DNA of 64,000 bases from Alteromonas sp. RKMC-009 (GTDB lineage Bacteria; Pseudomonadota; Gammaproteobacteria; Enterobacterales; Alteromonadaceae), in assembly GCF_003584565.2 (NCBI RefSeq), contig NZ_CP031010.1, forward strand, positions 1,178,001 through 1,242,000, read 5' to 3'. The position numbers and the translations under genes were made by a program. The first letter of the stretch is position 1; every line of letters starts with the position of its first letter. The notes under the pieces were generated by a model. The model was not told the DNA's origin. It searched no databases and worked only from the letters and a program-made list of their open reading frames with translations. Positions 17,370-51,566 of the stretch are shown here, in pieces.

Positions 17370-17385
17370 GGGCATTGGCTGAATA

Positions 17386-19453: not shown

Positions 19454-19517
19454 ACAGACTGATTGTTCTGGGGCCGTTATACAAATAAATATGTGCATAA
19501 AAAGCAAAGAGTTACAT

Positions 19518-19534
19518 CTTCAGCTAATCTTAAG
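19518..19534. promoter_or_regulatory. PmrA-type box upstream of pmrA-like regulator
   Basis: A near-perfect repeat CTTCAG-N5-CTTAAG (19518-19523, 19529-19534). It is followed 8 bp later by a TATACA -10-like hexamer (19543-19548) on the plus strand, 48 bp before the regulator start. This suggests positive autoregulation of the two-component pair. Confidence 0.65.
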
Positions 19535-19581
19535 TTTTCTGGTATACACTTCGACGATTTAGTTTTTAAAAGAGGTTGGCG

Positions 19582-21671: not shown

Positions 21672-21758
21672 TGTCAAAGCCCGTCATACCAACTCGTTAT
21701 AACGGGCTGTTAACTAGTCATCCTACATGTTCAAGAGCGACAGTTTTGGGGTGCTAAA

Positions 21759-24263: not shown

Positions 24264-24288
24264 AATGTAAGAACCTTCATAGTTAGAT

Positions 24289-24315
24289 TTGAAAGCGCTT
24301 ACATTTTGTTATAAT
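24289..24315 (+). promoter_or_regulatory. Candidate GH1-lacI-MFS promoter
   Basis: -35 TTGAAA (24289-24294) and -10 TATAAT (24310-24315) are separated by 15 bp. The LacI operator at 24290 covers the -35, and the second operator at 24322 covers the expected start point, an arrangement suited to repression. Confidence 0.5.
24290..24303. promoter_or_regulatory. LacI-family operator between GH3 and GH1, site A
   Basis: TGAAAGCGCTTACA, the same core as the GH16 operators. It overlaps the -35 hexamer of the proposed plus-strand GH1 promoter. Confidence 0.78.
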
Positions 24316-24321
24316 GTTATT

Positions 24322-24335
24322 TGAAAGCGCTTACA
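24322..24335. promoter_or_regulatory. LacI-family operator between GH3 and GH1, site B
   Basis: A second copy of TGAAAGCGCTTACA, 32 bp (about three helical turns) from site A. The two sites lie on the same DNA face and can serve both divergent promoters. Confidence 0.78.
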
Positions 24336-24414
24336 TTTTTTCAAGATAATTACACGAAGCGTTAACAAGTTCAATCCTGAATAACGAAAACTGGTTTGCC
24401 TGCCGGGAACAGAC

Positions 24415-25746: not shown

Positions 25747-25787
25747 CCGGTAAATTGGTGACATGATGAAGGCGCAGTATTTTTATT

Positions 25788-26798
25788 ATGGCAACCATTT
25801 ACGAAGTTTCTAAAGCAGCAGGTGTTTCGCTGGCTACAGTGTCCCGGGTGATGAACGGCAATGCCAAAGTCAGTGACCGGACGCGACAAAAAGTCGTGGA
25901 TGCCATGGAGGCGTTAGGTTACAAGCCTAATGCTATCGCCCAGTCTTTAGCTTCAAACCGCACAAACAGTGTGGGTTTACTGGTGTCTGAACTGCACGGC
26001 TCCTATTTTGGTGATCTGATGAGCACCATAGAGCTGATCCTTAAAAAACACGGCAAGCACGTTATTATTACCGCGGGCCACGTAGATGAAAGCCGTGAAA
26101 CAGACGCCATCGATTTTCTGACCAGCCGGCGTTGTGACGCATTGATTGTCCATGCTGAAGCTGTGACTGATGACTATCTGATTTCCTTAAGCAAAACATC
26201 TGTACCGGTGGCGGTGGTGAACCGTAAAGTTAACGGTCTGGAAGATAAGTGTTTTGTCGCTGATAACGTGGATGGCGGTTATCTGGCAACAAAAGCGGTA
26301 CTGGACAAAGGTCACCGGAATATCGGCTACATCAGCGGACCGCTTTTCAAAACAGATGCCTCAGACCGGTTAACCGGACATAAAAAGGCGTTAGCAGAAG
26401 CGGGTATCAGTTTTGAGTCTTCACTGATGTTTGAGGGAGACTATCATGAGTCGTCAGGTCAGGAAGGGTTTGCCAGCCTGCTGGCTCAGCATCCTGATAT
26501 GACTGCACTGGTGTGCGCCAACGATGAGATGGCCTCAGGGGCAATGACCGCCGCCAGAGAAGCGGGTTTTGCTTTACCTGAACAGTTGTCGGTAGTGGGG
26601 TTTGATAACGCCATTTTCTGTCGCTATCTGTATCCCAAACTGACTACGGTAAGCAACCCGGTACGTGCCATGGGCGAAATGGCAGCGCACTGGGTGCTGG
26701 AACATGTTTACGACATCAAATGTCCTCAACCTGTCACGCATATTTTTGAGCCTGAACTAATCTTACGGGATTCGCTGGGACCGGCACCCCATGCTTAA
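25788..26798 (+). CDS. LacI-family transcriptional repressor of beta-glucan genes
   Basis: A 336-residue regulator. The N-terminal HTH ATIYEVSKAAGVSLATVSRVMNG is followed by the hinge helix with SLASNRTNSVGLL and a periplasmic-binding-protein-like sugar domain (LVCANDEMASGAM, VVGFDNAIF). It lies 41 bp after GH1 and overlaps the MFS gene by 8 bp. The four GCGC-centred palindromes near GH16, GH3 and GH1 are of the type bound by this family, so it probably regulates both loci. The inducer is unknown; a glucose disaccharide is likely. Confidence 0.92.
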   Translation: MATIYEVSKAAGVSLATVSRVMNGNAKVSDRTRQKVVDAMEALGYKPNAIAQSLASNRTNSVGLLVSELHGSYFGDLMSTIELILKKHGKHVIITAGHVDESRETDAIDFLTSRRCDALIVHAEAVTDDYLISLSKTSVPVAVVNRKVNGLEDKCFVADNVDGGYLATKAVLDKGHRNIGYISGPLFKTDASDRLTGHKKALAEAGISFESSLMFEGDYHESSGQEGFASLLAQHPDMTALVCANDEMASGAMTAAREAGFALPEQLSVVGFDNAIFCRYLYPKLTTVSNPVRAMGEMAAHWVLEHVYDIKCPQPVTHIFEPELILRDSLGPAPHA

Positions 26799-28347
26799 CA
26801 GGCTTTCTCCTTCGCTGCGTTACACACTCATTGTAGCGCTCGGCGGGTTCATTTTTGGCTTCGATGCCAGCGTGATTTCCGGCGCTATCGGTTTCATTGA
26901 TTTAGCCTTCGGGTTGTCAGACTGGCAGCAGGGGTTTGTTGTCAGCTCCCCCACACTGGGCGCATTGATAGCCATGTGCTGTGCCGGTGCGGTCAGTGAC
27001 GCTATTGGCAGGCGAAAAACCCTTATCATCATTGCTGCGCTGTATCTTGTTTCCGCCCTGGCTTCAGCCCTGTCGGTGAATTACTGGATGCTGGTAAGCG
27101 CCAGGTTTCTTGGCGGCATGGCATTTTGTTCACTGTTAATTGCCCCGGTGTATATCGCTGAAATCAGCGCACCGGAAAATCGCGGCAAAATGGTGTCAGT
27201 AAACCAGCTCAATATTGTCACGGGTCTGGCGCTTTCGTACTTCAGCAATTACGCCTTCCTTCAGCTCAGTGGCAGTGATGCGCAATGGGTCAGTGATCTT
27301 GGGATCAGTGACAACTGCTGGCGTTATATGTTGGGACTGGAAATGATACCGGCGGCCATATGGTTAGTGCTGTTGTTTAAAGTGCCCCGCAGTCCGCGCT
27401 GGCTCATGCTTAAAAATCGTCAGGCAGAAGCAGAACAGGTTGTCAGAAAACTGTTCAGTCATGAGCAGGCTGAAAGACAGCTCGCGGCTATGAGCCAGTT
27501 ATCAGAAAACAAACACTGGCGATGGCGGCAGCGGCTTGGATTTCTGGTTGCACCCCGTATGCGCTTTCCTCTCATTGTCGGATTAATACTGGGTGTGTCA
27601 CAACAAATCACCGGCATTAACGTGATTTTTTTCTACGCCCCGACCATTTTCGAGCATAGCGGAGTCGGCACCGATGCGGCTTTTATGCAGGCAATCTGGA
27701 TAGGGTTAATCAATATTGTTTTTACCATTATTGCTATGGTGACCATTGACCGTTGGGGCAGAAAACCCTTGCTTGTAACCGGACTCTGCGGAGTGATGCT
27801 GAGCATGGCAATCTGTAGCTGGGGCTTTAAGCAAGCCACTTATGAACTGAATTCTGTGGAAGTGGCTGAAATTTCACTTGGCGATCCGGCTCTGGCCTCA
27901 CAACTTGTGCCACTCACCGGCAAGGCATTTTCATCAGACGTGTCATTTAAGCAGTCTTTAATAAATGCACTGGGACAGGAACAATACAGTCAGCATCAGC
28001 GGGTTCTGTTAAGTAAGGGCATCAATATGAATGCACCAGTGGTTCTCTTTGGATTACTGGCGTTTGTGGCATCCTATGCCATGTCTTTAGGGCCTGTCAT
28101 GTGGGCCATGCTGGCAGAAATATTTCCTAATCAGAGCAGGGCCCTCGCCATCTCCGTGGTGGGCGTAGTTAACTCTCTCTCCAGCTTCCTGGTACAGTTT
28201 CTGTTTCCCTGGGAGCTGATGAATCTCGGTGCCGCCGTCACTTTTGCCTCCTACGGTATATTCGCGCTCATCAGTCTGGTGCTGGTGGTTAAACTGTTTC
28301 CGGAAACCAAAGGACGTTCGCTGGAGCAAATCTCTGAGGGATTGTAG
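26791..28347 (+). CDS. MFS sugar porter
   Basis: A 518-residue transporter of the sugar porter family. It shows GFIFGFDASVISGA in helix 1, the loop motif DAIGRRKTL, the PESPRW equivalent PRSPRWLM, QQITGINVIFFYAPTIFE in helix 7, DRWGRKPLL, and a terminal PETKGRSLEQI. It is longer than typical (about 470) because of a hydrophilic insertion of about 65 residues after the ninth helix (about residues 350-415). It is last in the GH1-lacI operon and most likely imports glucose or a beta-glucan disaccharide. Confidence 0.9.
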   Translation: MLNRLSPSLRYTLIVALGGFIFGFDASVISGAIGFIDLAFGLSDWQQGFVVSSPTLGALIAMCCAGAVSDAIGRRKTLIIIAALYLVSALASALSVNYWMLVSARFLGGMAFCSLLIAPVYIAEISAPENRGKMVSVNQLNIVTGLALSYFSNYAFLQLSGSDAQWVSDLGISDNCWRYMLGLEMIPAAIWLVLLFKVPRSPRWLMLKNRQAEAEQVVRKLFSHEQAERQLAAMSQLSENKHWRWRQRLGFLVAPRMRFPLIVGLILGVSQQITGINVIFFYAPTIFEHSGVGTDAAFMQAIWIGLINIVFTIIAMVTIDRWGRKPLLVTGLCGVMLSMAICSWGFKQATYELNSVEVAEISLGDPALASQLVPLTGKAFSSDVSFKQSLINALGQEQYSQHQRVLLSKGINMNAPVVLFGLLAFVASYAMSLGPVMWAMLAEIFPNQSRALAISVVGVVNSLSSFLVQFLFPWELMNLGAAVTFASYGIFALISLVLVVKLFPETKGRSLEQISEGL

Positions 28348-32149: not shown

Positions 32150-34921
32150 TTATAGTTCAAAAGACAGTCTCACATACGCCTGACGGCCTAATGGATCAGC
32201 GGCGGTAGACAGATACTTGGTGAAAAAGGCTGCCGGTGGTTCGCGATCGAACAGGTTCACGGCACCCATAGCAATCTGATATTGTTCGTTGCCGCCAAAG
32301 CGGAATGCGTACTGTGCATCAATCACCGTGGATGAACTGATCTGTCCCCATGGCGTAGTGTAATTCATCGGCAGGAACACGTCATCTTCCACACCATCAA
32401 TAAAGCGCATGGTGACGTTTGCGGAGTGGGCGTTGTGTAACCAGGATACCTGCATAGTGTCGCGATATTCCGGTGCAACAGAGCCAGGGTTGTTATCGTT
32501 TCTGCGTCCCACTACGTCATACACGGGTTGGTCCGGGCCCACCTGCACGGTGTACTCGTTAATCCAGGTCAGCGAGTTACTGATGCTGAGAATGTGACCA
32601 TCGATGATTTCTGTACGGTAATCCAGACGCCAGTCAATGCCGTTTGTTTCGGTTTTACCCGCATTGAAATATCCCACATTTACCGCCAGTAACCGGCCAT
32701 CAGCATCCCGAATCAAATCAGGCCCGTTTGGATCCCGCTCTATCACCTGAGTTGCTGTTTCTGCCGTTACCTGATTCTCAAACTCAAAGCTCCAGTAATC
32801 TATCGATGTGGTTAATTCATCTGTTACTGTCCAGGTCATGCCGATATTAACGTTAGTTGATTCTTCCGGCTCAAGGTCGGGATTGGCAATTGTATTGATT
32901 ACACGGAAAGTTCCGTTGTCATTCGGGTCCAGCGGATCAATAGTCTGGCTGACGCCGGAAGATGACTGATTCCCCACTGAGTGCGCCAGAGACGGTGCTC
33001 TGAAAGCGGTACTGGCAGAGAGTCTGAAGGTGAGGTCGTCGGTCGCACGCCAGTTAAGACCTAATTTCGGATCAGTAGTGGTGAAGCGCCCGTAGTCTTC
33101 ATAGCGCAACGCCAGTTGCATATCTAAATCCAGTGTCCAGGGCAGGAATAACTCTGCAAAGACAGCATCGATGGTCCGTGAGCCTTGTCCCGGAGACTGC
33201 TTGCCGGTAAAGCCCCAACGTCCGGCCTGCGTCGCCGCATCAACAGTAACTTTACGGGTTTCCTTTCTGGTTTGCCCGCCAATAGCCACACCAATCGTTC
33301 CGCCGGGTAAATCAAACCAGGAGCCGTTGGCAACAAATTCAATGATTTGATAAATCACTTCATCTGAAGAACGGCTGGGTTGCAACAGGTTGTAAAATAC
33401 GCGGTCGTCATGGTTAAGCTGATCTTTACCAAAAGGGCTGAACCAGACACAGTTTCCTTCACCGGCGGTTTCAGCACTACTTGGGTTGCCAAACGGATCT
33501 GTCTGGCAATCAGCGCCACCATAACCATTTAAAGCATTTTGCAACATTTGCAGATCAGTGTCCGGCTCTGTATTCAGTGCGCGCTCCTGACTCCACACCC
33601 CGCTGACTTCGTACTGCCAGTCAGAGAAGCCCAGCTCACCTTTCCCCCCTAATACTAAATGGGTACCGTCCACGTCAGATTCTGCGAGACGGTAATCCGC
33701 ATTAATTCCCAGCACACGGCCATTGAACTGGACATCAACGCCGAAAGGGTTATATGGGTTTTCTGCCGGGACAACAGGGGATCCCAGTGAGATGGGCATA
33801 CTGGCGACACCATAGCGATTACCTTCCTGCTTATAGAAGCGGCCTTCGAAGAACATCTCATGCTCATCATTTACAAGGTAATTGGCTGATGCATAGGTTA
33901 GCCAGGTCTTAGACTCTGGCATGATAGGGTTCATTTGCTGGTAGCTGAACTGGCAAGTGCCGTAAGGAAACGGATTGCTGCCAACATAAATGCCGCCGGT
34001 GCCTTCGGCGGTACAGTGCGGATCGGCCAGCGTCACTCTGTTGCTGCCTGTATCTGCTGAAATCTGGTCGTACAGGGCGGAATAGTTTACCGGTCCGTTT
34101 ACGCCGTTATCGATGATGACATCTGAACCGTCAGCGCCGACAGGGCGCTCTGTAAGTACGAAGTTGCCCGGCTGCGCTGTCCCTGAGGTGTTGTTAGTGG
34201 CTGTGACGGCGCGATCTGAATTCTGCAAATTTGATTTGTACTCGTAGCTGCTGGCAATCATGCCGTGAAACTTGTCGTTTCCGCCGCCCAGTTTAAATTG
34301 CAGCAAATTAGCCGGTGCGTTTTCAATCGCCGTATGTTGCCAGCTGGCCGTCACACCTTCGTAGCGGTCATCGGTTATGATGTTCATGGCGCCGGCTATG
34401 GCATCAGAACCATAAATGGCAGATGCGCCGTCCAGTACGGTTTCAATTCTTCCCACCGCGATAGTGGGAACTAAGGCCGCAAGGTTGGTGTAACTGTTCC
34501 GTTTAGCATCCATTTCCTGTGAAGAAACACGGTGTCCGTTAAGCAATACGAGCGTGGAAGAGGGGCCCAGGCCCCGCAAGTTAGCTGAACGGGTCTGACG
34601 GGATTCTGAGCCGCCGCCGGCGCGGTTATTTACGCCGCCCACACTGCCAGTGTTCGCTGTATTGTTTACAATAATATCGTCCACACCGGAAAAGCCGGAT
34701 TTGAGAATTTCTTCACTGCCGACAATCTGGATGGGTGATGACATGGAAGCCTGTGCATCGCGGGTCACATAACTACCGGTCACTCTGATGACTTCAACGT
34801 CTTTTTCTTCTTTGTCCTGAGCAAAAGCAGTTGTTGATGTAGCCGGGTTAAGCAGGGCGGCGAGAACGGCGAGTTGCAGCTTGCTTCTTAAGAGCGGATG
34901 CTTTTTTGATGTGCTGAACAT
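32150..34921 (-). CDS. TonB-dependent receptor of the esterase/CoA-transferase cluster
   Basis: A 923-residue outer-membrane receptor. A signal peptide (ends near TTAFAQ) is followed by VEVIRVTGSYV, a plug with SSPIQIVGSEEILKSGF and TLVLLNGHRVS, then a barrel ending DPLGRQAYVRLSFEL. The start at MFSTSKKH has AGGA about 9 bases upstream. It lies 239 bp downstream of the tannase-family gene on the same strand, so it may have its own promoter. The AT-rich gap carries a degenerate copy (TTTATACTATT, 35051-35061) of the motif found upstream of the other cluster genes. The ligand is presumably the ester that the cluster degrades. Confidence 0.88.
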   Translation of the reverse strand: MFSTSKKHPLLRSKLQLAVLAALLNPATSTTAFAQDKEEKDVEVIRVTGSYVTRDAQASMSSPIQIVGSEEILKSGFSGVDDIIVNNTANTGSVGGVNNRAGGGSESRQTRSANLRGLGPSSTLVLLNGHRVSSQEMDAKRNSYTNLAALVPTIAVGRIETVLDGASAIYGSDAIAGAMNIITDDRYEGVTASWQHTAIENAPANLLQFKLGGGNDKFHGMIASSYEYKSNLQNSDRAVTATNNTSGTAQPGNFVLTERPVGADGSDVIIDNGVNGPVNYSALYDQISADTGSNRVTLADPHCTAEGTGGIYVGSNPFPYGTCQFSYQQMNPIMPESKTWLTYASANYLVNDEHEMFFEGRFYKQEGNRYGVASMPISLGSPVVPAENPYNPFGVDVQFNGRVLGINADYRLAESDVDGTHLVLGGKGELGFSDWQYEVSGVWSQERALNTEPDTDLQMLQNALNGYGGADCQTDPFGNPSSAETAGEGNCVWFSPFGKDQLNHDDRVFYNLLQPSRSSDEVIYQIIEFVANGSWFDLPGGTIGVAIGGQTRKETRKVTVDAATQAGRWGFTGKQSPGQGSRTIDAVFAELFLPWTLDLDMQLALRYEDYGRFTTTDPKLGLNWRATDDLTFRLSASTAFRAPSLAHSVGNQSSSGVSQTIDPLDPNDNGTFRVINTIANPDLEPEESTNVNIGMTWTVTDELTTSIDYWSFEFENQVTAETATQVIERDPNGPDLIRDADGRLLAVNVGYFNAGKTETNGIDWRLDYRTEIIDGHILSISNSLTWINEYTVQVGPDQPVYDVVGRRNDNNPGSVAPEYRDTMQVSWLHNAHSANVTMRFIDGVEDDVFLPMNYTTPWGQISSSTVIDAQYAFRFGGNEQYQIAMGAVNLFDREPPAAFFTKYLSTAADPLGRQAYVRLSFEL

Positions 34922-35160
34922 GATGTATAGTCCTGAATCTGGTCGGACGGCAACCACTAATGCCGTCCTGTTTTATGTGTTTGCCAGCTCCCGGCTGGCA
35001 GTCCTTATCAGTTCTCATCACACCATGGTGATATCAATAAGTTAAATTGATTTATACTATTAATTAACAAAATTTTAATATGAATGGGTTTTAAGTTTTT
35101 GAAATATAATGATTTGGTGTCTAGGGGATCAGCTAAATTTTTCATCAGCCCATATAGACA

Positions 35161-36615
35161 TTATTTAAGTATGGTTTTGGCGGGGGCTAACTGAAAAGTC
35201 TCTTTTGATTTACCGTTTACCGGTGCGTGGATGACGCCGGGCTCTGTGCCGTGCTCAACCCACTGTTGCAGGGCAGGAAAAGCATCAAATTCGCTGATAA
35301 ACGGACCGCCGGCACAGTGAGACATGCCCGGCACTTCGTAATATCTGGCATTAAAAGACGCTCCGGTATCTGCCGCGGCTTCACGGAAATAGCGTGCCGT
35401 ATCGGCTGATGATACAACCGGGTCTGCCAGGCCATGATAAATAATGAGTTTTCCGCCTTGTTGCATGAAGGCAGACAAATCCGTTTCTGTGGCGTCGATA
35501 CGCGGGGAGAGAGCGTTGCTTGCCCGCTGATAATCTGTGTGCCAGTCAAATGTCCATGGATCCCATTCCGCCTGATCAAATGCCCACAAACGCCAGAAGT
35601 CTGCTCTGGCAGGTTGGGAAGGATTTTTCGGGTCGGCCATATAAGCGGCCCAGCCTGCACCTCCTGTGTATTCACTGCCGGGGGGAAAACCGGGATAGAT
35701 TTGCTCGCCGGTGACAGGATCGACCGGCCCCTGATAAATCTTTTGCAGGCGGGATAGTTTATCAGCGCTCAGGCATTGGGTATCAAGGTCATTTTGACAT
35801 TGCAAAACGGTGAGATCCGGCTTGCACGACTCTGTTCGCAGGATCACGCCCTTTGCCGGGCCAGATTCTTCGCCGCACTGCCGGGCAACGGTTCGGGACA
35901 GCAAAGCGAGATCCGGTTTGGTGATCACCGCTTCTCCCGTTTGTTTGTCATGAAATTGCTGAAAAAGCCACAGAAAGGCGGCATTAAGGGCGACGCGGTT
36001 GTTGCCCGGAGCCCCTGCCAGTACACCGTCAAAATCCTGCGGAAAATACTGAACACTGGCGAGAGCCTGATGGCCACCGGTGGAACATCCGGAAAAATAG
36101 CTGAACTGCGGTGCATCGCCATAGACATGTTCAATGAGGGTTTTACCTGTTTCACTTAATGCATGAACCGCATACCGTCCCCAGTAATCAATCCGTTCAG
36201 GTACGTCTGAGGCGAAACTTAAGTCGTCTCCGCGATGGCCTGTATTTGTAGCCCCCACAGCGAACCCTTTATTCAGAAATGCCGTCATGGCACTTTGGGC
36301 AATACTGTCGCTGTAACCCCCGTTTCCAAAGGCAATAAACCGGCCATTCCATTTATCCGGTGCGGGCAGCCAGGTGTATACCTCAATAAATGAACCGGCT
36401 GACCGGCTGAGCGTTGCAGGTCGCACCTGTGTGGTCACGCGGCAATGTTGCGCTTTAGTTTCAATGTGGCTGACAACGCCGTCTTCCGGCCCGGCTTGTT
36501 TGATAGCGTTGCAAAAGCCGGTCAGATCTTTTGCTGTTAATGTGTGAGAACTCAGAAGGCAAGTGGAAACTGCAAGTTGGCTCAGCAGTAACCGGATTAA
36601 GAACACCCGGCTCAT
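35161..36615 (-). CDS. Tannase/feruloyl esterase family hydrolase (exported)
   Basis: A 484-residue enzyme with a signal peptide (FLIRLLLSQLAVSTCLLSSHTLTA). The catalytic serine is in GCSTGGHQA, Asp in YHGLADPVVSS and His in MSHCAGG. The neighbouring Cys of the GCS and HC motifs make the CS-D-HC arrangement of the tannase/feruloyl esterase family. The start MSRVFLIR is chosen because its ATG overlaps the stop of the HMG-CoA-lyase gene (ATGA). It should cleave a carboxylic ester in the periplasm. Absence of ring-cleavage genes nearby argues against a simple gallate or ferulate pathway. Confidence 0.85.
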   Translation of the reverse strand: MSRVFLIRLLLSQLAVSTCLLSSHTLTAKDLTGFCNAIKQAGPEDGVVSHIETKAQHCRVTTQVRPATLSRSAGSFIEVYTWLPAPDKWNGRFIAFGNGGYSDSIAQSAMTAFLNKGFAVGATNTGHRGDDLSFASDVPERIDYWGRYAVHALSETGKTLIEHVYGDAPQFSYFSGCSTGGHQALASVQYFPQDFDGVLAGAPGNNRVALNAAFLWLFQQFHDKQTGEAVITKPDLALLSRTVARQCGEESGPAKGVILRTESCKPDLTVLQCQNDLDTQCLSADKLSRLQKIYQGPVDPVTGEQIYPGFPPGSEYTGGAGWAAYMADPKNPSQPARADFWRLWAFDQAEWDPWTFDWHTDYQRASNALSPRIDATETDLSAFMQQGGKLIIYHGLADPVVSSADTARYFREAAADTGASFNARYYEVPGMSHCAGGPFISEFDAFPALQQWVEHGTEPGVIHAPVNGKSKETFQLAPAKTILK

Positions 36616-37520
36616 TGTGCATTCTGCCTGTTCAGCATTGCCAGACCGGCGCGTGACGTAGTTTGTCGTCGCAGTGCCTTGTTTATCCATAATCCGGTTT
36701 CACTGAGTTTGAGTAAAGCGATGCCGTGGTTAAACCCTTCGCGGTCAAGCAGATAAACGAGATCCTCAGTGGCTACATTGCCTGTAGCGCCTTTTGCGTA
36801 AGGGCAACCGCCAATGCCGCCCACAGAGGCATCAAAGGTACGGATGCCTTCTTCCAGTGAAACATAAATGTTGGCAATGGCCTGCCCGTAAGTGTCGTGC
36901 ATGTGCATGGCAATTTTGTGTGGCGGTATGCTCTGTAACAGGGCTTTCAGTAAGTGCCTGATGCGCCCCGGCGTGCCGGTGCCGATGGTGTCACCTAATG
37001 ACACTTCAACACAGCCCATATCAAACAGCTTCTCTGTGACATCAATCACACTTGCGTGTGAAACGTCACCGTCATATGGGCAGCCCGCAATGCAGGATAC
37101 GTATCCCCGCACCGGTATGCCTGCTTGTTGCGCCGCACGGGTAACTTCTGCAAAACGGATCAGGCTGGTGGCAATATCGCAATTCAGGTTTTTACGGGAA
37201 AACCCTTCTGATGCTGAAGCGAATATAGCGACTTCATCTGCACCGGCACTCACTGCCTGCTCAAAGCCTTTCAGGTTAGGTGTGAGGGCTGAGTAAATCA
37301 CCCCGGCTTTCCGTGTTATACCTTCAAATACGGCAGGGGTATCCGCCATTTGCGGAACGCGGTCCGGGCGTACAAAACTGCCGGCCTCAATATGTGTTAA
37401 CCCGCATCCGGCAAGCTGGTCAATGAGCGTAATTTTCGTTTTCAGGGAAACCGGAAGCCGTTCGCTTTGCAGGCCATCTCTGGCACCCATTTCCACTATC
37501 TTAATATCGGTGTTCGTCAT
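36612..37520 (-). CDS. Hydroxymethylglutaryl-CoA lyase family enzyme
   Basis: A 302-residue DRE-TIM lyase. It shows VEMGARDGLQSE with the catalytic Arg-Asp, a metal site near MHMHDTYGQA, and the active-site Cys loop GGIGGCPYAKGATGNVATED, all as in HMG-CoA lyase. It splits HMG-CoA, or a close 3-hydroxy-3-alkylglutaryl-CoA, into acetoacetate (or a homologue) and acetyl-CoA. It is not next to leucine catabolism genes; its partners are a CoA-transferase and a carboxylate transporter. That suggests a free acid is activated and cleaved. It overlaps the tannase gene by 4 bp. Confidence 0.9.
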   Translation of the reverse strand: MTNTDIKIVEMGARDGLQSERLPVSLKTKITLIDQLAGCGLTHIEAGSFVRPDRVPQMADTPAVFEGITRKAGVIYSALTPNLKGFEQAVSAGADEVAIFASASEGFSRKNLNCDIATSLIRFAEVTRAAQQAGIPVRGYVSCIAGCPYDGDVSHASVIDVTEKLFDMGCVEVSLGDTIGTGTPGRIRHLLKALLQSIPPHKIAMHMHDTYGQAIANIYVSLEEGIRTFDASVGGIGGCPYAKGATGNVATEDLVYLLDREGFNHGIALLKLSETGLWINKALRRQTTSRAGLAMLNRQNAQ

Positions 37521-37541
37521 GTTTTTACCCTGTAACGACTT

Positions 37542-38819
37542 TTATAAGGGGATTACGCCAAGCAACACGGCTACCAGCGTCATGAATAACGACACGCCGG
37601 CCAGTAAGGGCAGGGCGTAGCGCTGATGATCTGCCAGACTGATTTGCGTAAGACCAATAAGCAGGAACGTTGCCGGTGTTAACGGGCTCACCGGAAATCC
37701 GGTGGTCATTTGCCCCAGCAGCGCACCGTGTGCCACGCTGACAGCAGGCAGGCCCGATTCAGCAGCAATGCCTGCCAGTACCGGCATAATGCCGAAGTAA
37801 AAAGAGTCCGGATCAAACAACAGGCTCAGGGGCATGGATAATACGGCGACCACAAGAGGCATGTTTCCGGTTAATGCCTCAGGTAACAAGGTACTGCCAC
37901 TTGATGCCATGGCATCCAGCATGCCTGAGTGCTTCAGTACGCCGGTAAAACATCCGGCAGCAAAGAGTATGCTGACCATCATGAATACCGGCGCAGCGTG
38001 GTTATCGATGGTTCTTTTCTGTGCTTCCTGAGAAGGGGCATTAATCAGCAAAGCGGCCAGCGCACCGCCGGTAAATGCCACAACAGGGGGGAGCAGACTG
38101 GCGACGATAGTGCTTATAACAATGACTATAAGCGCAATGTTGATGAACCATTTTACGTCTTCCCGGCGCGTTTGCTGCGCTGAAGTGATGGACGTATCTG
38201 TAATCGCAGTTTGTTTCAGCCGTTCTTTATGGCCCATCCAGTAAGCAATCAGGAGCACGAAAGCAAAGCCACTGAGATGGACCGGCAGAACGGGCGCGTA
38301 CAGCTCCATAACCGGTACGTCGAGGGCGGCGGCTGCACGGATGGTAGGGCCACCCCAGGGAAGCATATTGTTGACACCTGCCGACATCGCTACCAGTGCT
38401 GCCAGCTTTTTGCGCTCAATGTTCAGTGCATCAAAAACCGGTAATACCGCAGGTATCACAATTAAAAAGGTACTGGCGCCGGAGCCGTCAAGATGCACCA
38501 GGGCGGTAATCAGCACGACACCGGTGAACAGTTTCCTGGGGTCGCTGCCACACACTTTCAGCACGCCGTTGATAAAGGGCGTAAACACATGGTTGTCGTT
38601 CATGATGCCGAAAAACAAAATGGCAAACATGAACATGACCGCCACCGGGGCAATAGCGGTGATCCCCTGAACCATATAGCCGGGCACCGCCATACCTTCG
38701 CCGGCTATCAGCGCGCCGGCAACCGGAATAGCAACAAGGGCAACCAGCGGGGAGAGACGTTTGCTGACGATGGCCAGCAACACGGTCACAATGGTCAGAA
38801 AGCCGGTGAGCGCTAACAT
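37542..38819 (-). CDS. CitMHS-family carboxylate transporter
   Basis: A 425-residue protein with about 11-12 hydrophobic helices and the family signatures LVHLDGSGASTFLIVIP and NNMLPWGGPTIRAAAAL of the citrate-Mg2+:H+ symporter group. It sits 6 bp after the beta-lactamase-fold hydrolase and 21 bp before the lyase gene, on the same strand. The substrate is probably a di- or tricarboxylate released by the periplasmic esterases; citrate itself is possible but does not explain the neighbours. Confidence 0.85.
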   Translation of the reverse strand: MLALTGFLTIVTVLLAIVSKRLSPLVALVAIPVAGALIAGEGMAVPGYMVQGITAIAPVAVMFMFAILFFGIMNDNHVFTPFINGVLKVCGSDPRKLFTGVVLITALVHLDGSGASTFLIVIPAVLPVFDALNIERKKLAALVAMSAGVNNMLPWGGPTIRAAAALDVPVMELYAPVLPVHLSGFAFVLLIAYWMGHKERLKQTAITDTSITSAQQTRREDVKWFINIALIVIVISTIVASLLPPVVAFTGGALAALLINAPSQEAQKRTIDNHAAPVFMMVSILFAAGCFTGVLKHSGMLDAMASSGSTLLPEALTGNMPLVVAVLSMPLSLLFDPDSFYFGIMPVLAGIAAESGLPAVSVAHGALLGQMTTGFPVSPLTPATFLLIGLTQISLADHQRYALPLLAGVSLFMTLVAVLLGVIPL

Positions 38820-38825
38820 AGGCTG

Positions 38826-40112
38826 TTAACGGGCTTCTGCGGCAGTCGCTTCAATCAGGTACTGACGAAACGGGACCTGTTTAGCGAAGGGAGGCGGCGT
38901 GATGACCTGCGTCATAAAAACCACCAGGCTTTGGGTTTCGGGGTTGACCCAGAACACGGTATTGCCGGAACCTGCCCAGCCGAAAGACCCGTCGGGCATA
39001 AAGTTTTCAGCTTCAGTGTCCGGTGATCCAATCGCAAAGCCATATCCGAACGCCATCGGGGCGTCGTTACCAAATTCTTCAATGGTGATCCGTGGCGCAA
39101 ATAAGGCATCCACAGACGCTTCGCTTAACAGCCGCTTACCGTTATAAACACCTTTATTTGCCAGCATAGTAGCAAATGCCACGTAATCAGATGCGGTGCC
39201 GGCCAGTGCACCGCCGCCATCGAGTAAGCGGTTTGCATCTTTGTAATCGGTATTTTGTGCCGTTTCTATGACCTTCAGACCATTCTCAGTCATCAGATAA
39301 TTGGTCACAAACCGGTTGAGATCGTCACCGGTGACAAAAAAGCCGGTGTTGTTCATACCAAGAGGTGTAAACAGGTTGTTCTCAAGCCAGCTATCCAGCC
39401 GCTCGCCGGAAACGGTTTCAATAATTTTACCCAGCAGGGTAGTGGAATAGCTGTAGTCAAACGTTTCGCCCGGCTGGCTTAACAGCGGGGCTGCGGCAAG
39501 GCGTTCAGCCAGCTCCGTGAGATTACGCGCCGGCGCACCGTCTGTTGGCAGTGTGCCAACGGGGGTATCACGCTTCACGCCATATTTCCGGTAATACTGG
39601 TGAACCGGTGTGTTGCCGGTAAAGTGATAGGTAATACCGGATTTATGGGCCAGCAGGTCATCAATTGTCATTTGCCGCTTTACCGGCTCCGTGACCATGT
39701 TCTCAAGGTCGCCGGACACGTAAACCTGTGAGTCTTTGAAGGCTGGCAGATACTTGCTGACCGGATCGGACACCTGCAATTTGCCCTGCTCCTGCAGCAT
39801 CATAATGCCCACACTGGTAATGGGTTTGGACATAGAATAAAGACGAAAAAGGGTATCATCCGTCATCGCCGTTTTGCTGCCAGTATCCTGATACCCGTTC
39901 ACATAATGATAAACCGGCTTGCCCTGCTCAATAATTGTGGTGACTGAGCCCGGCATGGTGCCGTTTTCAACCAGCGTATCTAATTTGGCAGACAATGCCG
40001 CAAACCTTTGGTCATCCTCTGCAGCAGGCGTTGCACATTCGCTAAGCGAAGCAAAAGTAAAAAGCGCAGCCGCACCGAGAATGTATGATTTTGCCTGAAT
40101 GTTGAAACTCAT
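38826..40112 (-). CDS. Serine hydrolase, beta-lactamase/class C esterase fold (exported)
   Basis: A 428-residue protein with a signal peptide (YILGAAALFTFASLSECA). The SxxK motif is SMSK in LYSMSKPITSVG, the Tyr motif YSYST stands in the YxN position, and GWAGSGNTVFW is near the C-terminus, matching the EstB/LACTB-type hydrolases of the beta-lactamase superfamily. It probably acts as a periplasmic esterase alongside the tannase-family enzyme rather than as a resistance gene, given its catabolic operon. The start overlaps the CoA-transferase stop by 4 bp. Confidence 0.85.
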   Translation of the reverse strand: MSFNIQAKSYILGAAALFTFASLSECATPAAEDDQRFAALSAKLDTLVENGTMPGSVTTIIEQGKPVYHYVNGYQDTGSKTAMTDDTLFRLYSMSKPITSVGIMMLQEQGKLQVSDPVSKYLPAFKDSQVYVSGDLENMVTEPVKRQMTIDDLLAHKSGITYHFTGNTPVHQYYRKYGVKRDTPVGTLPTDGAPARNLTELAERLAAAPLLSQPGETFDYSYSTTLLGKIIETVSGERLDSWLENNLFTPLGMNNTGFFVTGDDLNRFVTNYLMTENGLKVIETAQNTDYKDANRLLDGGGALAGTASDYVAFATMLANKGVYNGKRLLSEASVDALFAPRITIEEFGNDAPMAFGYGFAIGSPDTEAENFMPDGSFGWAGSGNTVFWVNPETQSLVVFMTQVITPPPFAKQVPFRQYLIEATAAEAR

Positions 40113-41314
40113 TTTTCACTCCGTTCAGTGCTGAATATGATGTTCTTTTTCTGTAACTCATCGATAGCGTCGTGGCTGTAGCCTAACGCTTCAAGAATGC
40201 TCACCGTATGCTGGCCGGGTAGCGGTGGTGGTAAATCGTCTGTGACTTCCCCGTCAACATTGAAAGGTTTGCCGGGTTGCCGTAAGCGGCCTTCAGAGGG
40301 GTGTTCGTATTCATTGAAAAAGCGGATTGATGACAGGTGCGGGTCATGAAGTAAGCTATCAATGTTGTTCACCGGAGCAAACGGGACGTCAATTTCAGTC
40401 AGTGCGGTGACCCATTCTTCCGTGGTGCGTGCGGGAGTGGCTTCACTGACAATTTTATACAGCGATCCCACGTTTTCGCTCCGCTTTACCGGATCGGTCA
40501 CCGTGGCGTGCTCTGTCATATCTTCGCGTCCAATCAGGCGGAAGAAGCGTTGCCAGTGACGTGTGCTGTAGGGCAAAATACTGATGTAGCCGTTTGACGT
40601 AGGAAAGGGTTTACGGTAAGGCGAATTCAGCCTTTCATAACCGGTGCCGCCGAGAGGCGGTACAAAGGTTTCGCCGGCCAGTTGTTCTGTCATCAGAAAT
40701 GACACCATGCCTTCAAACATGGGCGCTTCAATGCAGGTGCCCTCGTTATGTTTCAGGCGGTGAACCACGCCTGCCAGTACCGACATGGCCAGATGCATAC
40801 CACCCACTTTGTCGCAAATAATAGTGGGAATAAAACGGGGCTGACCGTCAGATGTGCGGTTTAGATAGGCAATGCCGCTTTCCGCCTGAATAATGTCATC
40901 GTAAGCGGGTTTGTGGGCATACGCGCCGCTTTGACCGTAGCCGGGCGCAAAGCAGTACACAATTTTATCGTTAATCTTTTTTACCGCCGGGTAGTCGATA
41001 CCGAGACGCTCTGCGGTAGCCGTACGCATGTTGTGAACTACCACATCGGCTTCTGCGATCAGCTTTTGAAGTATTTCCTGTCCGCCCTCACTTTTTAGAT
41101 CCAGAGCGATGGTTTTTTTATTGCGGTTACAGTTAATGAAGCCCGCGCCCATTTCCGCTGAACGGCCGGGTCTGACGGTTCTGAATAAGTCCCCGGTGAT
41201 GTTCTCTACCTTGATAACGTCTGCACCAAAATCACCAAGGAATTGCGTTGCATAGGGCCCTAAAACGATGGTCGTCAAATCAAGGACCTTGATCCCGTTG
41301 AGCAACGAAAACAT
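40109..41314 (-). CDS. CaiB/BaiF class III CoA-transferase
   Basis: A 401-residue enzyme. The N-terminal signature IKVLDLTTIVLGPYATQFLGDFGADVIKVE is followed by NRNKKTIALDLKSEGG, AYDDIIQAESG and a probable catalytic Asp in ICDKVGGMHLA. This family transfers CoA between carboxylic acids. A human member (SUGCT) uses succinyl-CoA and 3-hydroxy-3-methylglutarate, which would fit the HMG-CoA-lyase-type gene downstream. It is first gene of the main minus-strand operon. A copy of the cluster's shared motif lies 68 bp upstream of its ATG. Confidence 0.9.
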   Translation of the reverse strand: MFSLLNGIKVLDLTTIVLGPYATQFLGDFGADVIKVENITGDLFRTVRPGRSAEMGAGFINCNRNKKTIALDLKSEGGQEILQKLIAEADVVVHNMRTATAERLGIDYPAVKKINDKIVYCFAPGYGQSGAYAHKPAYDDIIQAESGIAYLNRTSDGQPRFIPTIICDKVGGMHLAMSVLAGVVHRLKHNEGTCIEAPMFEGMVSFLMTEQLAGETFVPPLGGTGYERLNSPYRKPFPTSNGYISILPYSTRHWQRFFRLIGREDMTEHATVTDPVKRSENVGSLYKIVSEATPARTTEEWVTALTEIDVPFAPVNNIDSLLHDPHLSSIRFFNEYEHPSEGRLRQPGKPFNVDGEVTDDLPPPLPGQHTVSILEALGYSHDAIDELQKKNIIFSTERSEK

Positions 41315-41381
41315 AGATTCTCCTCAGATAGGCCGGCAGGATGGAAGGGTAACGTGCCGGCTACTTTATTTTTACAAGTTG

Positions 41382-41408
41382 TTCATACTATGCGGAATCG
41401 TTATCTAT
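41382..41408. promoter_or_regulatory. Shared cluster motif, copy 1 (candidate LysR site)
   Basis: TTCATACTATG-N8-TTATCTAT, identical in sequence and spacing to 42577-42603. The core CATA-C-TATG is an inverted repeat. It lies in the 174-bp gap before the CoA-transferase gene. Confidence 0.65.
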
Positions 41409-41488
41409 CAGGCAAATCAATTAATTCTATAATTCAATATTGAAAATTTATTAATTGACCGGGGCCTTGTCAGCCCCGCTGCCGGAAT

Positions 41489-42490
41489 TTATTGAAAGTC
41501 TTTAGCGTCGAGATTGAAGAAGCGCACTGCGTTATTAAACAGAATGTCGCGTTTTTGCTGTTCAGTGAGGTAGTCAGCATCCTTAATGACATTGATAGAG
41601 GTTTCCATCAGGCCCGGCCAGATCAACAAGTCGGTTCCGTACAAAATACGGCGGCCAAATCCTGCTGTCACCAGACGTTCGATGTAGCGGTTTACTTCGG
41701 CCAGCGGGTAACTCCAGATCATACCGGCAATGTCCACATACACGTATGCGTGTGCGCCCATCAGTGCAATCATGGCATCGTCCATAGGATAGCCGGCGTG
41801 CATCACCCATATTTTCAATTTCGGGTGACGGGCAAGCATGTCTTCCAGTTCGAAGGGGTTACCCAGTGAAGCGCGGTAATCGGGTGAGGTAATATTTGCC
41901 ATACCATTGCCCCCGGTGCCCATGTGAATAGCTACGGGGATCTTTAACTCTTCAGCAATGGCAAAGTACGGATCCAGTGACATATCAGAAGGCGACATAC
42001 CGCGGTACTGGGGCGCTACTTCACCAACAACCTTGTAAAATCCACTCTCAAGGGCCGTTCTGAATTCATCCGGTGACATATCATCAGTAAGACTCAATGC
42101 CATACCCAGTGAAGGGATCACTCTGTCCGGTGCAGCCTTGTGCATGGCCCGTAATACATCATCATCGCCACTGGCCACCATGGTGACGTTCAGCCTTTGT
42201 GCTTCGCTGATGGCTTTTGCAATGTAGTCTTCAGTGGATGTAGCTGACGCCAGCGGTTGCTCACAGTTTGTGTTCATAAATGAAGGCGGTGCCTGATGGG
42301 GATCGCCGCCCGGCATATCGGTAAGGAACCAGGGACACATGGGGCCGGCTTTGCCATTTACCTGCATGGCATGCACGTGCACGTCGATAACAGGCAAAGG
42401 CTTATCCGCCGCGGTGGCAGGCGTCAGTGCGCCGGCCATCCACAGACCCGTTGTTAAACACAGTGCTTTGCAAGGAAGAGGTAACGGCAT
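41489..42490 (-). CDS. Exported amidohydrolase-family metalloenzyme (Amidohydro_2)
   Basis: A 333-residue TIM-barrel hydrolase with a signal peptide (CLTTGLWMAGALTPATAA). Metal ligands are visible: HxH in VIDVHVHA, His in VAIHMGTGG and VMHAGYP, and Asp in ILYGTDLLI. The family includes ACMSD/resorcylate decarboxylases and lactonases such as LigI. Export is unusual for the decarboxylases and fits a periplasmic lactonase or hydrolase better. It is separated from the CoA-transferase by 174 bp and divergent from the LysR gene, with a cluster motif in both gaps. Confidence 0.82.
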   Translation of the reverse strand: MPLPLPCKALCLTTGLWMAGALTPATAADKPLPVIDVHVHAMQVNGKAGPMCPWFLTDMPGGDPHQAPPSFMNTNCEQPLASATSTEDYIAKAISEAQRLNVTMVASGDDDVLRAMHKAAPDRVIPSLGMALSLTDDMSPDEFRTALESGFYKVVGEVAPQYRGMSPSDMSLDPYFAIAEELKIPVAIHMGTGGNGMANITSPDYRASLGNPFELEDMLARHPKLKIWVMHAGYPMDDAMIALMGAHAYVYVDIAGMIWSYPLAEVNRYIERLVTAGFGRRILYGTDLLIWPGLMETSINVIKDADYLTEQQKRDILFNNAVRFFNLDAKDFQ

Positions 42491-42576
42491 GGTATGATCC
42501 TTTTTGATGTTGGTTGATCCGGAGCTGAAGTTCAGAAATCAAATTAACCTTTTTTAGATTAAAAGTTTACATTTTA

Positions 42577-42603
42577 TTCATACTATGATTTTCTATTATC
42601 TAT
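42577..42603. promoter_or_regulatory. Shared cluster motif, copy 2 (candidate LysR site)
   Basis: TTCATACTATG-N8-TTATCTAT in the AT-rich divergent region between the amidohydrolase (87 bp to its ATG) and the LysR gene (61 bp to its GTG). It is the exact match of copy 1, so it probably binds the adjacent LysR protein. Confidence 0.68.
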
Positions 42604-42663
42604 AACTCCAATAAATAAATTGTATAAATCTATAATTTATTCTGATTAATCGGGCGTGCTCAC

Positions 42664-43554
42664 GTGGTCAACATTAAACATCTCAAAGCCTTCATTGCTC
42701 TTGCCACAGAACTTCACTTTACACGGGCCGCAGAACGGGTTTGCCTCACCCAGCCAGCGTTAAGCTCATTGATCCAACAGTTAGAACAGGATTTCGGGAT
42801 CCAGCTTGTAAGAAGACATACCCGTCAGGTCGAACTGACGCCCGCCGGAGAAGAATTTCGTGACACGGCAGAAAAGCTGGTGGCTGACTTTGAGCAGGCC
42901 ATTTACGACGTCAAGACTTACAAGTCCATAAAGCGGGGCAGGCTGGATATCGCGGTGCTGCCCTCAGTTTGCAGCTCTTTGCTGCCACGGGTGCTGAAAC
43001 GGTTTAACAGCGATTATCCGGATATCCGGTTAAACATTCAGGACTGCGCCGGACAGGAAATCATCAATGCGCTGAATGAAAAGCGGATTGATTTCGGCAT
43101 TTGTTATGCCCAGTCTGACAAAGAAGTGGAAGCATTGACCCTCATCAAAGATGCCATGGTAGTGGTGTGTTCTGATACACATACTCTGGCAAAGGAGAAA
43201 TCCGTCAAATGGGCACAACTGGCAAATCAGCCGGTCATTGCCATGAACAAGGGTACGACGATCCGGACCCTCATCGACAGCACAGCACTGGCTCAGGATA
43301 TGAAGCTGGATATTATTCTTGAACCCATGCAGATGACATCTGCTTTTGCCTATGCAGAAGCCGGTTTGGGCGTGGCAGTGTTACCCAGTTCAGGAGTCCC
43401 GGCACGCATGTCCCCGGGGTTGCGGGCAATCGAACTCACCCATCCGGTAGTGGAAAGAAATATTTCTTTACTCCGGCGTAGGGGGGTTGCCTTGTCTCCA
43501 GCAGGTAATATTTTAAAGCAGTATCTGATGGAGGCGGTTAAAGGGGCAGAATAG
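42664..43554 (+). CDS. LysR-family transcriptional regulator
   Basis: A 296-residue regulator with GTG start. The N-terminal HTH IKHLKAFIALATELHFTRAAERVCLTQPALSSLIQQLE is followed by an effector-binding domain (RGRLDIAVLPSVCSSLLPRVL, CYAQSDKEVEAL). It is divergent from the catabolic genes, as is usual for LysR proteins that activate a neighbouring pathway. The inducer is presumably a pathway acid or its CoA ester. Confidence 0.9.
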   Translation: MVNIKHLKAFIALATELHFTRAAERVCLTQPALSSLIQQLEQDFGIQLVRRHTRQVELTPAGEEFRDTAEKLVADFEQAIYDVKTYKSIKRGRLDIAVLPSVCSSLLPRVLKRFNSDYPDIRLNIQDCAGQEIINALNEKRIDFGICYAQSDKEVEALTLIKDAMVVVCSDTHTLAKEKSVKWAQLANQPVIAMNKGTTIRTLIDSTALAQDMKLDIILEPMQMTSAFAYAEAGLGVAVLPSSGVPARMSPGLRAIELTHPVVERNISLLRRRGVALSPAGNILKQYLMEAVKGAE

Positions 43555-48867: not shown

Positions 48868-51108
48868 CTAAGCCAGCACTTTAGCGCCCAGCGGTAACCT
48901 GCGAACTACTTTACCGGTTATGCTGCTGATGGCATTTAAGATAGCCGGAACGGCAGGCGGTACGCCGGGCTCTCCGATCCCCGTTGGCGGCTTCACGGAG
49001 TCAACCGTAAATACTTCCACTGCCGGTGCTTCATTGATGCGAAGAACCGGATAATTGTGGAAATTGCTCTGTGTTACCACACCGTCTTCCAGGGTGATTT
49101 CCTGTTTCAGGAATGACATGGCAAAACCGATCCCGCCCTCTACCTGTGTCGCCACATTGACCGGGTTAATTACCTGGCCGCAATCCACAGCGCAGTATAC
49201 CTTGTCTACTTTGTAGGTGTTGTCTGGACGCACTGTGACTTCCGCTACCTGAGCAACGATGGTGTTAAACGACTGACGTATGGCAATACCCCGCGCTCGC
49301 CTTTCGCCCTCTTTGCCCTGCGGAAGTGGCGTGTTCCAGCCGGATTTTTCAGCAACGAGATCCAGCACGTGTAAAAATTCAGGCGCATCAGCCAGTAATT
49401 TACGTCTGAACTGGTAAGGGTCCTGTCCGGTTTTAGCGGCAATTTCATCAATCAATACTTCGCCGACAAAGGCCGAGTGCGTATGGCCTACAGAGCGCAA
49501 CCACGAAACAGGCACATCACCTTTAACCAGGTGCTGCTCTACCAGCATGTTATTAATGGCGTAGGGCAGGCCGTGAGCACCTTCCATCAGCGTATGGTCA
49601 ACCTGCGTGGCCGGCATGGGGAAGAAACTTTGCCCTACAACACGCCAGCGCCAGGAAGCCACACTGCCATCGGCGTTAATCATGATTTTGTTGTTGTGTA
49701 CTGTCATCGGGCGATACTGCATGCCACCCATGTCTTCTTCCCGCAGCCACACCATTTTGATGGGCACGTGAAGCCCCTGCGCACGGGCAACTTTAGCAAT
49801 ACGGGCTGCTTCTATCACAAAGTCGCAGCTTGGGCCGGCACGGCGACCGAAACTGCCACCTGCATAAAGCTGGGTGATCTGCACTTTTTCAACCGGCAAA
49901 CCGGTCTCTTTGGCGATGGCTGCCTGGTCTGCGGTATGCCATTGTTCGCCATTCCACATATGACAGCTGTCTTCCTGAAGGTGAATCAATGCGTTCATCG
50001 GCTCCATTGCTGCGTGAGCCAGGTAAGGCAATTCAAACACCGCATCGATTTCATGACCGCCTTCAGGCACTTCAGCTAATTGCGGGCCGGTATTTGCCAC
50101 TTCAAGCCCGGGCGTCGCGGCCAGCTGTCTGTATTCTTCAAACAGGGCAGCGGTACCGGCGTGTGAACCTGTATTCCCGTCCCATTGAATATTCAGTGCA
50201 TCACGGCCTTTCTTCGCAATCCAGGTATTTTTAGCAAGCACAGCTACACCGCCCTGAATTACGTTGTCGCCGGGAATGTCCAGTACCGCAACGACACCCG
50301 GCACCGCCAGGGCCGGCGCTTTGTCTACGCTGGCTACTTTTGCGAATTTTCTTGGCGGGTGAGCAATGACGGCCACCAGCATATCCGGTAGTTTGATATC
50401 CTGAGTATAAACAGCCTTGCCGTTTACTTTTTCCGGCACGTCGACACGGCGCATGCCTTCCGCTTTTCCGATGCGCTGATACTCAGCCGGCTTTTTAAAC
50501 GTAAGTGTACCCGCATCAGGCACCGGTAACTCTGCAGCGGCATCGATAAAGGCACCGTAACCGGCACGCTTATTTGTTGCTTTGTGAATAACGATACCGT
50601 CTTCCACAACCAGTTCTTTAAACGGGACTTTCCACTCCAGGGCTGCTGCCTGAAGTAACATATGGCGTGCCGATGCTGCTGCGGTTCGCATTACATTCCA
50701 TGCTCCGGCCATAGCGGTACTGCCGCCGGTACCCTGCACATTAAAACCTACCGCCGCCAGCACCGGATTGCCGTATTTTTCTAAGTCGGCAGGGGAGCCT
50801 GTCACCTGCAGTTGCTCCGGTGTAATATGTAATTCTTCAGCCGCCAGTGTAGCAAGACCGGTAAAGGTACCCTGGCCCATTTCTATATAGCTGGAAATAA
50901 TCGTAACAAAGCCGTTTTTATCGATTTGAATAAACGCGTTGGGCATAAATACATCAGCCCCGGCGTTTTCTGCTGCCAGCGCAATCTGGCCTTTAAAGTT
51001 TACCGCCAGTGTCAATGCGCCCATGCCGGCCAGAAACTGCCTGCGGGTAATGGCAGCACCATGTTGCGCTGCTTCAGTTTGTTGCTGATGTTGAGGGTTA
51101 ATGATCAT
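48868..51108 (-). CDS. iorB: Molybdopterin subunit of xanthine dehydrogenase-family oxidoreductase (IorB-like)
   Basis: A 746-residue protein with a Tat signal (ITRRQFLAGMGALTLAV). The molybdopterin domain includes SSYIEMGQGTFTGLATLAAEEL, a GGSFGRRAGPSCDF loop and GEPGVPPAVPAILNAISSITG, with the catalytic Glu at GEPG. It pairs with the 2Fe-2S subunit through a TAATG overlap. This layout (IorA plus IorB, no FAD subunit) is typical of isoquinoline 1-oxidoreductase and periplasmic aldehyde oxidases. The substrate cannot be told. The start MIINPQHQQ is chosen from the overlap. Confidence 0.88.
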   Translation of the reverse strand: MIINPQHQQQTEAAQHGAAITRRQFLAGMGALTLAVNFKGQIALAAENAGADVFMPNAFIQIDKNGFVTIISSYIEMGQGTFTGLATLAAEELHITPEQLQVTGSPADLEKYGNPVLAAVGFNVQGTGGSTAMAGAWNVMRTAAASARHMLLQAAALEWKVPFKELVVEDGIVIHKATNKRAGYGAFIDAAAELPVPDAGTLTFKKPAEYQRIGKAEGMRRVDVPEKVNGKAVYTQDIKLPDMLVAVIAHPPRKFAKVASVDKAPALAVPGVVAVLDIPGDNVIQGGVAVLAKNTWIAKKGRDALNIQWDGNTGSHAGTAALFEEYRQLAATPGLEVANTGPQLAEVPEGGHEIDAVFELPYLAHAAMEPMNALIHLQEDSCHMWNGEQWHTADQAAIAKETGLPVEKVQITQLYAGGSFGRRAGPSCDFVIEAARIAKVARAQGLHVPIKMVWLREEDMGGMQYRPMTVHNNKIMINADGSVASWRWRVVGQSFFPMPATQVDHTLMEGAHGLPYAINNMLVEQHLVKGDVPVSWLRSVGHTHSAFVGEVLIDEIAAKTGQDPYQFRRKLLADAPEFLHVLDLVAEKSGWNTPLPQGKEGERRARGIAIRQSFNTIVAQVAEVTVRPDNTYKVDKVYCAVDCGQVINPVNVATQVEGGIGFAMSFLKQEITLEDGVVTQSNFHNYPVLRINEAPAVEVFTVDSVKPPTGIGEPGVPPAVPAILNAISSITGKVVRRLPLGAKVLA

Positions 51109-51566
51109 TATTTCAGCTCCCTTGCCGCACGGTGAATAGCGCTGCGGATCCGTGGATAGGCTGCGCAACGACAAATGTTTCCGCTCATGGCGGCATCAAT
51201 ATCATCATCCGTTGGCGCAGCTTTCTCTTTCAGTAACGCGACCGCAGACATGATTTGACCAGACTGGCAATAACCACATTGTGGCGCCTGCTCCTCTATC
51301 CAGGCAGCCTGAACAACTGCACCGATCCTGTCGGTTTCAGCGGCTTCAATGGTGGCGACAGCGGCTCCTTCCAAAGCCAGCATTGGAGTGACGCAGGATC
51401 TGACCGGCTTGCCATTTACGTGCACGGTACATGCACCGCACTGGGCCATACCGCACCCGAACTTTGTGCCGGTAAGCGCGATTTCATCTCGTAAATACCA
51501 CAACAGTGGCATTTGCTGGTCTCCGTCAAAGGTTTCGGGACGACCGTTTACGGTAAGCTTAATCAT
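51108..51566 (-). CDS. iorA: 2Fe-2S subunit of molybdenum hydroxylase (IorA-like)
   Basis: 152 residues with two 2Fe-2S clusters. A plant-type ferredoxin site reads [21 protein letters not shown] in outline, and the C-terminal helical cluster binds through CGYCQSG and [13 protein letters not shown]. It is first in the iorAB operon. No Tat signal is present, so it should be co-exported with IorB. The upstream gap 51567-51931 (365 bp) holds no gene and no promoter that I can defend. Confidence 0.92.

Follow-up and report, generated by a model that had tools for sequence, protein, structure and literature searches.

In the 64,000-nucleotide stretch of the Alteromonas sp. RKMC-009 genome analysed here (contig NZ_CP031010.1, positions 1,178,001 to 1,242,000; hereafter the window), eight clustered genes between positions 32150 and 43554 probably form a LysR-controlled regulon for the use of esterified 3-hydroxy-3-methylglutarate (HMG), a reading to which we assign a probability of roughly 0.57 from the sequence evidence. 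The acid handled by the locus is most likely HMG itself, which is citrate with a methyl group replacing the central carboxylate. HMG esters of flavonoids and lignans occur in plants. Because citrate needs neither transfer to coenzyme A (CoA) nor a lyase of the kind encoded here, HMG is favoured over citrate as the acid.

In the proposed route, a TonB-dependent receptor would bring the ester across the outer membrane, where the exported tannase-family and beta-lactamase-fold enzymes would hydrolyse it, and a CitMHS permease would import the free HMG. The class III CoA-transferase would then form HMG-CoA. This product would need to be the (S) form, because TIM-barrel lyases of the HMG-CoA family are described as (S)-HMG-CoA lyases in excerpts of PMC6689899. 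The HMG-CoA-lyase-type enzyme would split the thioester to acetyl-CoA and acetoacetate, a step backed by its family and its residues. Elsewhere the genome encodes a pair of 3-oxoacid CoA-transferase subunits that could activate acetoacetate in trans, and both score above their cut-offs (328.6 versus 243.55 bits and 248.3 versus 128.5 bits). Free HMG has been reported in Acinetobacter baylyi, and its possible origin from the CoA ester is discussed by the authors in excerpts of PMC4213383. The original prediction had placed uptake, CoA transfer and HMG-CoA-lyase-type cleavage at the centre of the locus; this core logic holds up, given the conserved linkage, the intact lyase site, the separate leucine-pathway lyase and a Ruegeria operon.

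The lyase scores above the cut-off of the HMG-CoA lyase model and is thus a member of that family (Table 1). It is identical to the human enzyme at 158 of 289 residues and to the P. aeruginosa enzyme (2ftp) at 156 of 289. R14, D15, E45, H206, H208, C239 and N248 are retained in a gapless alignment, and we take them to be the equivalents of the human catalytic and metal-binding residues R41, D42, E72, H233, H235, C266 and N275. A separate cluster of the leucine-degradation (liu) type in the same genome has its own lyase (453 bits, cut-off 246), which is 48-50% identical to the locus enzyme. In that cluster, the thiolase passes a broad thiolase model and the biotin subunit of the carboxylase passes a biotin-carboxylase model, while the dehydrogenase, carboxyltransferase and hydratase match related models below their cut-offs; members other than the lyase were named by gene order and best matches, mostly below curated cut-offs. 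As the liu-type cluster has its own lyase, the locus enzyme is, judged by these comparisons, an extra paralogue besides the leucine-pathway lyase.

The CoA-transferase is a member of the Pfam class III family PF02515. Its Asp168, presumably the catalytic residue, is invariant in 36 of 36 aligned rows, and the nearest solved structure by sequence is 9br6, the succinate-hydroxymethylglutarate CoA-transferase SUGCT.

All eight open reading frames were verified, and Pfam backs each of the families named in the original prediction, the weakest named match being the Plug domain of the receptor (9.9e-12). Read along the minus strand, the genes follow one another as amidohydrolase, CoA-transferase, beta-lactamase-fold esterase, CitMHS permease, lyase, tannase-family esterase and receptor, with the LysR gene divergent. 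Judged by the reading-frame coordinates, the five genes from the CoA-transferase through the tannase form a tight block: the CoA-transferase and esterase overlap by 4 nucleotides, as do the lyase and tannase, and gaps of 6 and 21 nucleotides separate the esterase from the permease and the permease from the lyase. Wider gaps lie between the amidohydrolase and the CoA-transferase (174 nucleotides) and between the tannase and the receptor (203 nucleotides).

Of 59 genomes of the genus, 4 have a match to the CoA-transferase at E<=1e-80. Among sampled genomes it was found in one of 196 from the family (E<=1e-60) and one of 394 from the order (E<=1e-80), in both cases the genome of the window. The other three of the four are those of A. 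confluentis (L007), A. pelagimontana (L053) and an Alteromonadaceae metagenome-assembled genome (MAG; L008). The LysR, CoA-transferase, esterase, permease and lyase genes occur at all four Alteromonadaceae loci, so that the CoA-transferase/lyase/CitMHS core, for which a neighbourhood comparison had been proposed, is kept throughout. The tannase and receptor are found at three of them (not at L007) and the amidohydrolase at two (the window and L007); the regulator of the window is 63-77% identical to those of the other three. With the linkage repeated in these three further genomes of the Alteromonadaceae, chance does not suffice to explain it, and the locus is a conserved, patchily distributed catabolic locus.

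A related arrangement stands in Ruegeria (L017), where an IclR regulator, a TRAP transporter, a CoA-transferase 55% identical to that of the window, a 3-hydroxybutyrate dehydrogenase (373.7 bits, cut-off 307), a family I CoA-transferase, an HMG-CoA lyase (456 bits, cut-off 246) and a hydratase are encoded together. The family I enzyme belongs to PF01144 and scores 384 bits on the FadX model, under the cut-off of 750. A liu-type region lies apart from the locus in this genome too; its lyase shares 64% identity with the locus copy, and its hydratase 63%. The Ruegeria locus lends the HMG reading independent support, its acetoacetate-type enzymes being suited to the products of HMG-CoA cleavage and not to those of citramalyl-CoA cleavage. 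The CoA-transferase, lyase and LysR genes are adjacent in a second genome of the genus (L093), and a third (L094) has a CoA-transferase 49% identical to that of the window without the lyase.

Several observations weigh against HMG as the acid, or against esters as its source. The CoA-transferase scores 185.4 bits on the model of the SUGCT type (NF052585, a succinate-glutarate CoA-transferase family), below its cut-off of 750. The comparison with SUGCT that had been drawn for this enzyme is thus apt in that both are class III and SUGCT is its best solved relative, but it stands as an analogy and not as a family assignment. With a hydratase present in the Ruegeria operon, 3-methylglutaconate would be another acceptable acid. 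HMG-CoA lyases of the P. aeruginosa type also cleave longer analogues, and there is an appreciable, if small, chance that the locus instead handles a different short 3-hydroxy acid, for example citramalate, which would give acetyl-CoA and pyruvate, or a longer 3-hydroxy-3-alkylglutarate; chemistry and gene order would be the same. Close analogues of HMG are possible substrates also because, according to excerpts of PMC6689899, HMG-CoA and citramalyl-CoA are both cleaved by one CitE-type lyase. Against such an acid, the locus lyase is one of the TIM-barrel HMG-CoA lyases and keeps their residues, and the dehydrogenase and family I CoA-transferase of Ruegeria fit acetoacetate rather than pyruvate.

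A second group of observations concerns relatives without the lyase. Fifteen loci with a CoA-transferase at least 50% identical were read (the window, L007-L017, L023, L053 and L093). The lyase is nearby in six of them and not in nine, some of these stretches, e.g. L014 and L016, ending at contig ends. The lyase search, from which other gammaproteobacterial genomes were left out, gave no lyase match at E<=1e-20 in the L011 and L013 genomes, which are MAGs of unstated completeness; three PF00682 matches in each lie in frames of 519-602 amino acids. The L009 and L010 loci hold the CoA-transferase, esterase, permease, tannase, receptor and LysR genes without the lyase. It is conceivable, though improbable, that the set of CoA-transferase, esterase, permease and receptor serves a different small dicarboxylate, as may be the case at the alphaproteobacterial loci, and that Alteromonas gained the lyase to handle a related acid or to carry out a minor step. 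The residue preceding the catalytic Asp may mark such a difference in substrate, as it is Cys at all six lyase-linked loci and Ala at all nine others; these rows are related and not independent, and rows P0140, P0145, P0151 and P0240, of unknown context, also have Cys. However, the lyase lies inside the tight operon at four Alteromonadaceae loci, and the L009 and L010 genomes carry 35-37% identical lyase-type genes elsewhere, one of which (tested in the L009 genome) passes the HMG-CoA lyase cut-off (298 versus 246 bits). HMG-CoA cleavage in trans may thus occur there. In favour of HMG, the lyase-linked CoA-transferases fall into two separate clades of the tree, and 6 of the 14 CoA-transferase clusters P0122-P0135 agree with an HMG-CoA-lyase match in the length of the longest contig, two of the six being loci already counted. 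From the lyase-less loci and the Cys/Ala split, the CoA-transferase family as a whole probably serves more than one acid. As a separate observation, the proteobacterial MAGs L011, L013 and L014 have a tannase-family gene upstream of a CoA-transferase that is 53-56% identical to that of the window.

The ester part of the route is more conjectural than the core. The predicted import and release would agree with the presence of a receptor and of two exported enzymes of the esterase type, but no tannase or receptor like those of the window was found at the A. confluentis locus. The tannase-family gene could also mean that the locus breaks down aryl esters of the tannin or feruloyl kind, the aromatic part being the main nutrient and the lyase branch secondary. 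Some 32-52 kb past the window end (G000:C1, about 1273884-1294291; L103 and L104), the genome encodes a catechol dioxygenase, a ring-hydroxylating dioxygenase, another tannase-family protein and a family I CoA-transferase pair. The earlier statement that ring-cleavage genes are absent is therefore true of the cluster but not of the genome. We consider the aryl-ester account very unlikely, as the eight genes contain no ring-cleavage family and no tannase was found at one of the four loci at which CoA-transferase, esterase, permease and lyase occur together. That these are neighbours without joint function is hardly credible: some relatives do lack the amidohydrolase, and some the tannase/receptor pair, but the 4-nucleotide overlaps, the conserved order and the common promoter element speak against it.

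A more probable start for the tannase is position 36615, an ATGA overlapping the lyase stop and followed by a stretch that resembles a signal peptide by eye. Its match to PF07519 places it in the family; the CSTGG and HCAGG segments align with solved enzymes, and the Ser, Asp and His segments are present. The closest solved relatives of the beta-lactamase-fold protein are the carboxylesterase 4ivi and the esterase 7pp3. On the class C beta-lactamase model it falls far short of the cut-off (NF033085, 58 versus 415 bits). The permease, above its model cut-off, belongs to CitMHS, a family named for carriers of citrate-like acids. The receptor is 80% identical to those of L008 and L053 and 52-54% identical to those of two alphaproteobacterial loci. 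The tannase is 47-51% identical between the window and L008 or L053, lower than the receptor, and it may be the imported compound that has been better conserved. The amidohydrolase, present at two of the four loci, appears to be accessory. Its structural model has a mean predicted local distance difference test (pLDDT) score of 80.2, and the predicted barrel matches those of lactonases, decarboxylases, phosphotriesterases and uncharacterised hydrolases about equally well, which speaks neither for nor against the lactone that had been suggested as its substrate. No solved relatives were found by sequence search; relatives in Bacteroidota are 64-69% identical, and closer ones exist.

The intergenic regions between LysR and amidohydrolase and between amidohydrolase and CoA-transferase are alike at 62 of 96 positions; no other place in the window exceeds 48. 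Across the 5.01 Mb genome, the pattern CATAGTATKAAYAANNTGTAAA is matched in full at two places, both at the locus, one before the amidohydrolase and one before the CoA-transferase. Four further places match with 3 mismatches, and a reversed control gave two within 3 mismatches. As the pattern was built from the locus and related sites, its fit to these is not independent; its absence elsewhere in the genome is. The element also occurs in the relatives, in a weaker form before the CoA-transferase of A. confluentis. The shared element before both genes suggests that the amidohydrolase was inserted between LysR and the operon together with a promoter copy. LysR would be the protein that binds the element. 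The stretch upstream of the receptor differs from it.

Table 1. Annotated features of the locus, in window positions
Feature	Position	Strand	Basis
TonB-dependent outer-membrane receptor, likely ester importer	32150..34957	-	Pfam barrel and Plug
Conserved stretch upstream of the receptor, perhaps its own promoter/operator	35033..35070	-	Similar stretch in A. pelagimontana and the Alteromonadaceae MAG, by eye
Exported tannase/feruloyl-esterase-family hydrolase	35161..36615	-	Pfam Tannase, 275 bits; start moved from 36690
HMG-CoA-lyase-type enzyme	36612..37520	-	NF004283, 430.4 bits (cut-off 246)
CitMHS-family permease for a citrate-like acid	37542..38819	-	TIGR00784, 336.6 bits (cut-off 259.7)
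Beta-lactamase-fold (family VIII-like) esterase, probably exported	38826..40112	-	Pfam Beta-lactamase; export signal by eye
Class III (CaiB/BaiF) CoA-transferase	40109..41314	-	Pfam CoA_transf_3, 345 bits
Putative promoter element before the CoA-transferase operon	41371..41392	-	0 mismatches to the final pattern, 1 to the first pattern
Exported Amidohydro_2 metal hydrolase, accessory	41489..42490	-	Pfam
Putative promoter element before the amidohydrolase, in the LysR intergenic region	42566..42587	-	0 mismatches to the final pattern
Divergent LysR-type regulator	42664..43554	+	Pfam HTH_1 and LysR_substrate

Compared with known systems, the last step of the leucine (liu) pathway employs a lyase of the same family, and the locus enzyme presumably catalyses the reaction of that step. 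Unlike in that pathway, HMG-CoA at this locus would arise from the free acid by CoA transfer and would be cleaved by a separate lyase paralogue. The itaconate degradation cluster consists of Ict, Ich and Ccl, with a hydratase and a CitE-type lyase. It is similar in combining a CoA-transferase with a lyase that yields acetyl-CoA, but neither its hydratase nor its CitE-type lyase is among the ten proteins scanned, the locus lyase being of the HMG-CoA type. The fumonisin degradation cluster also places a receptor, a secreted esterase and carboxylate uptake around an ester, although the esterase and the acid differ. Among the papers listed from an open-licence library, which for one topic were 15 of 222, none was found to describe a bacterial HMG-catabolic locus, judged from titles and the openings of abstracts. 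If the proposed function is right, bacteria would possess a route for free or ester-bound HMG that is distinct from the metabolism of leucine and of mevalonate; functions would be gained for a CoA-transferase and a CitMHS subfamily, and HMG esters would become candidates for a nutrient in the sea.

A more specific version, which we regard as speculative and put forward tentatively, is a dedicated regulon for HMG-acylated natural products, with a receptor of conserved specificity, exported esterases and a CoA-transferase/HMG-CoA-lyase pair, HMG scavenging having arisen separately in Alteromonas and Ruegeria. Genes for a glycoside hydrolase family 3 (GH3) glycosidase and a carboxylesterase lie beside the LysR gene in the alphaproteobacterial relatives (L009 4902-8703 and L010 152-4032), hinting at glycosides as the HMG-esterified molecules.

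The genes around the locus were also inspected. Positions 8539-28347 of the window encode GH16, GH3 and GH1 enzymes, a LacI regulator and a sugar transporter, and resemble a region for the use of beta-glucan. Genes for LacI, a transporter and GH3 are likewise found next to the A. confluentis locus. Between 29455 and 31717 lie a 589-amino-acid reading frame with a weak RHS-repeat match and then a 157-amino-acid frame without a Pfam family. At 48868-51566, large and 2Fe-2S subunits of the molybdenum hydroxylase type are encoded. A comparable large subunit is encoded beside the A. confluentis locus (L007 2346-4634), so the two loci may share a chromosomal position.

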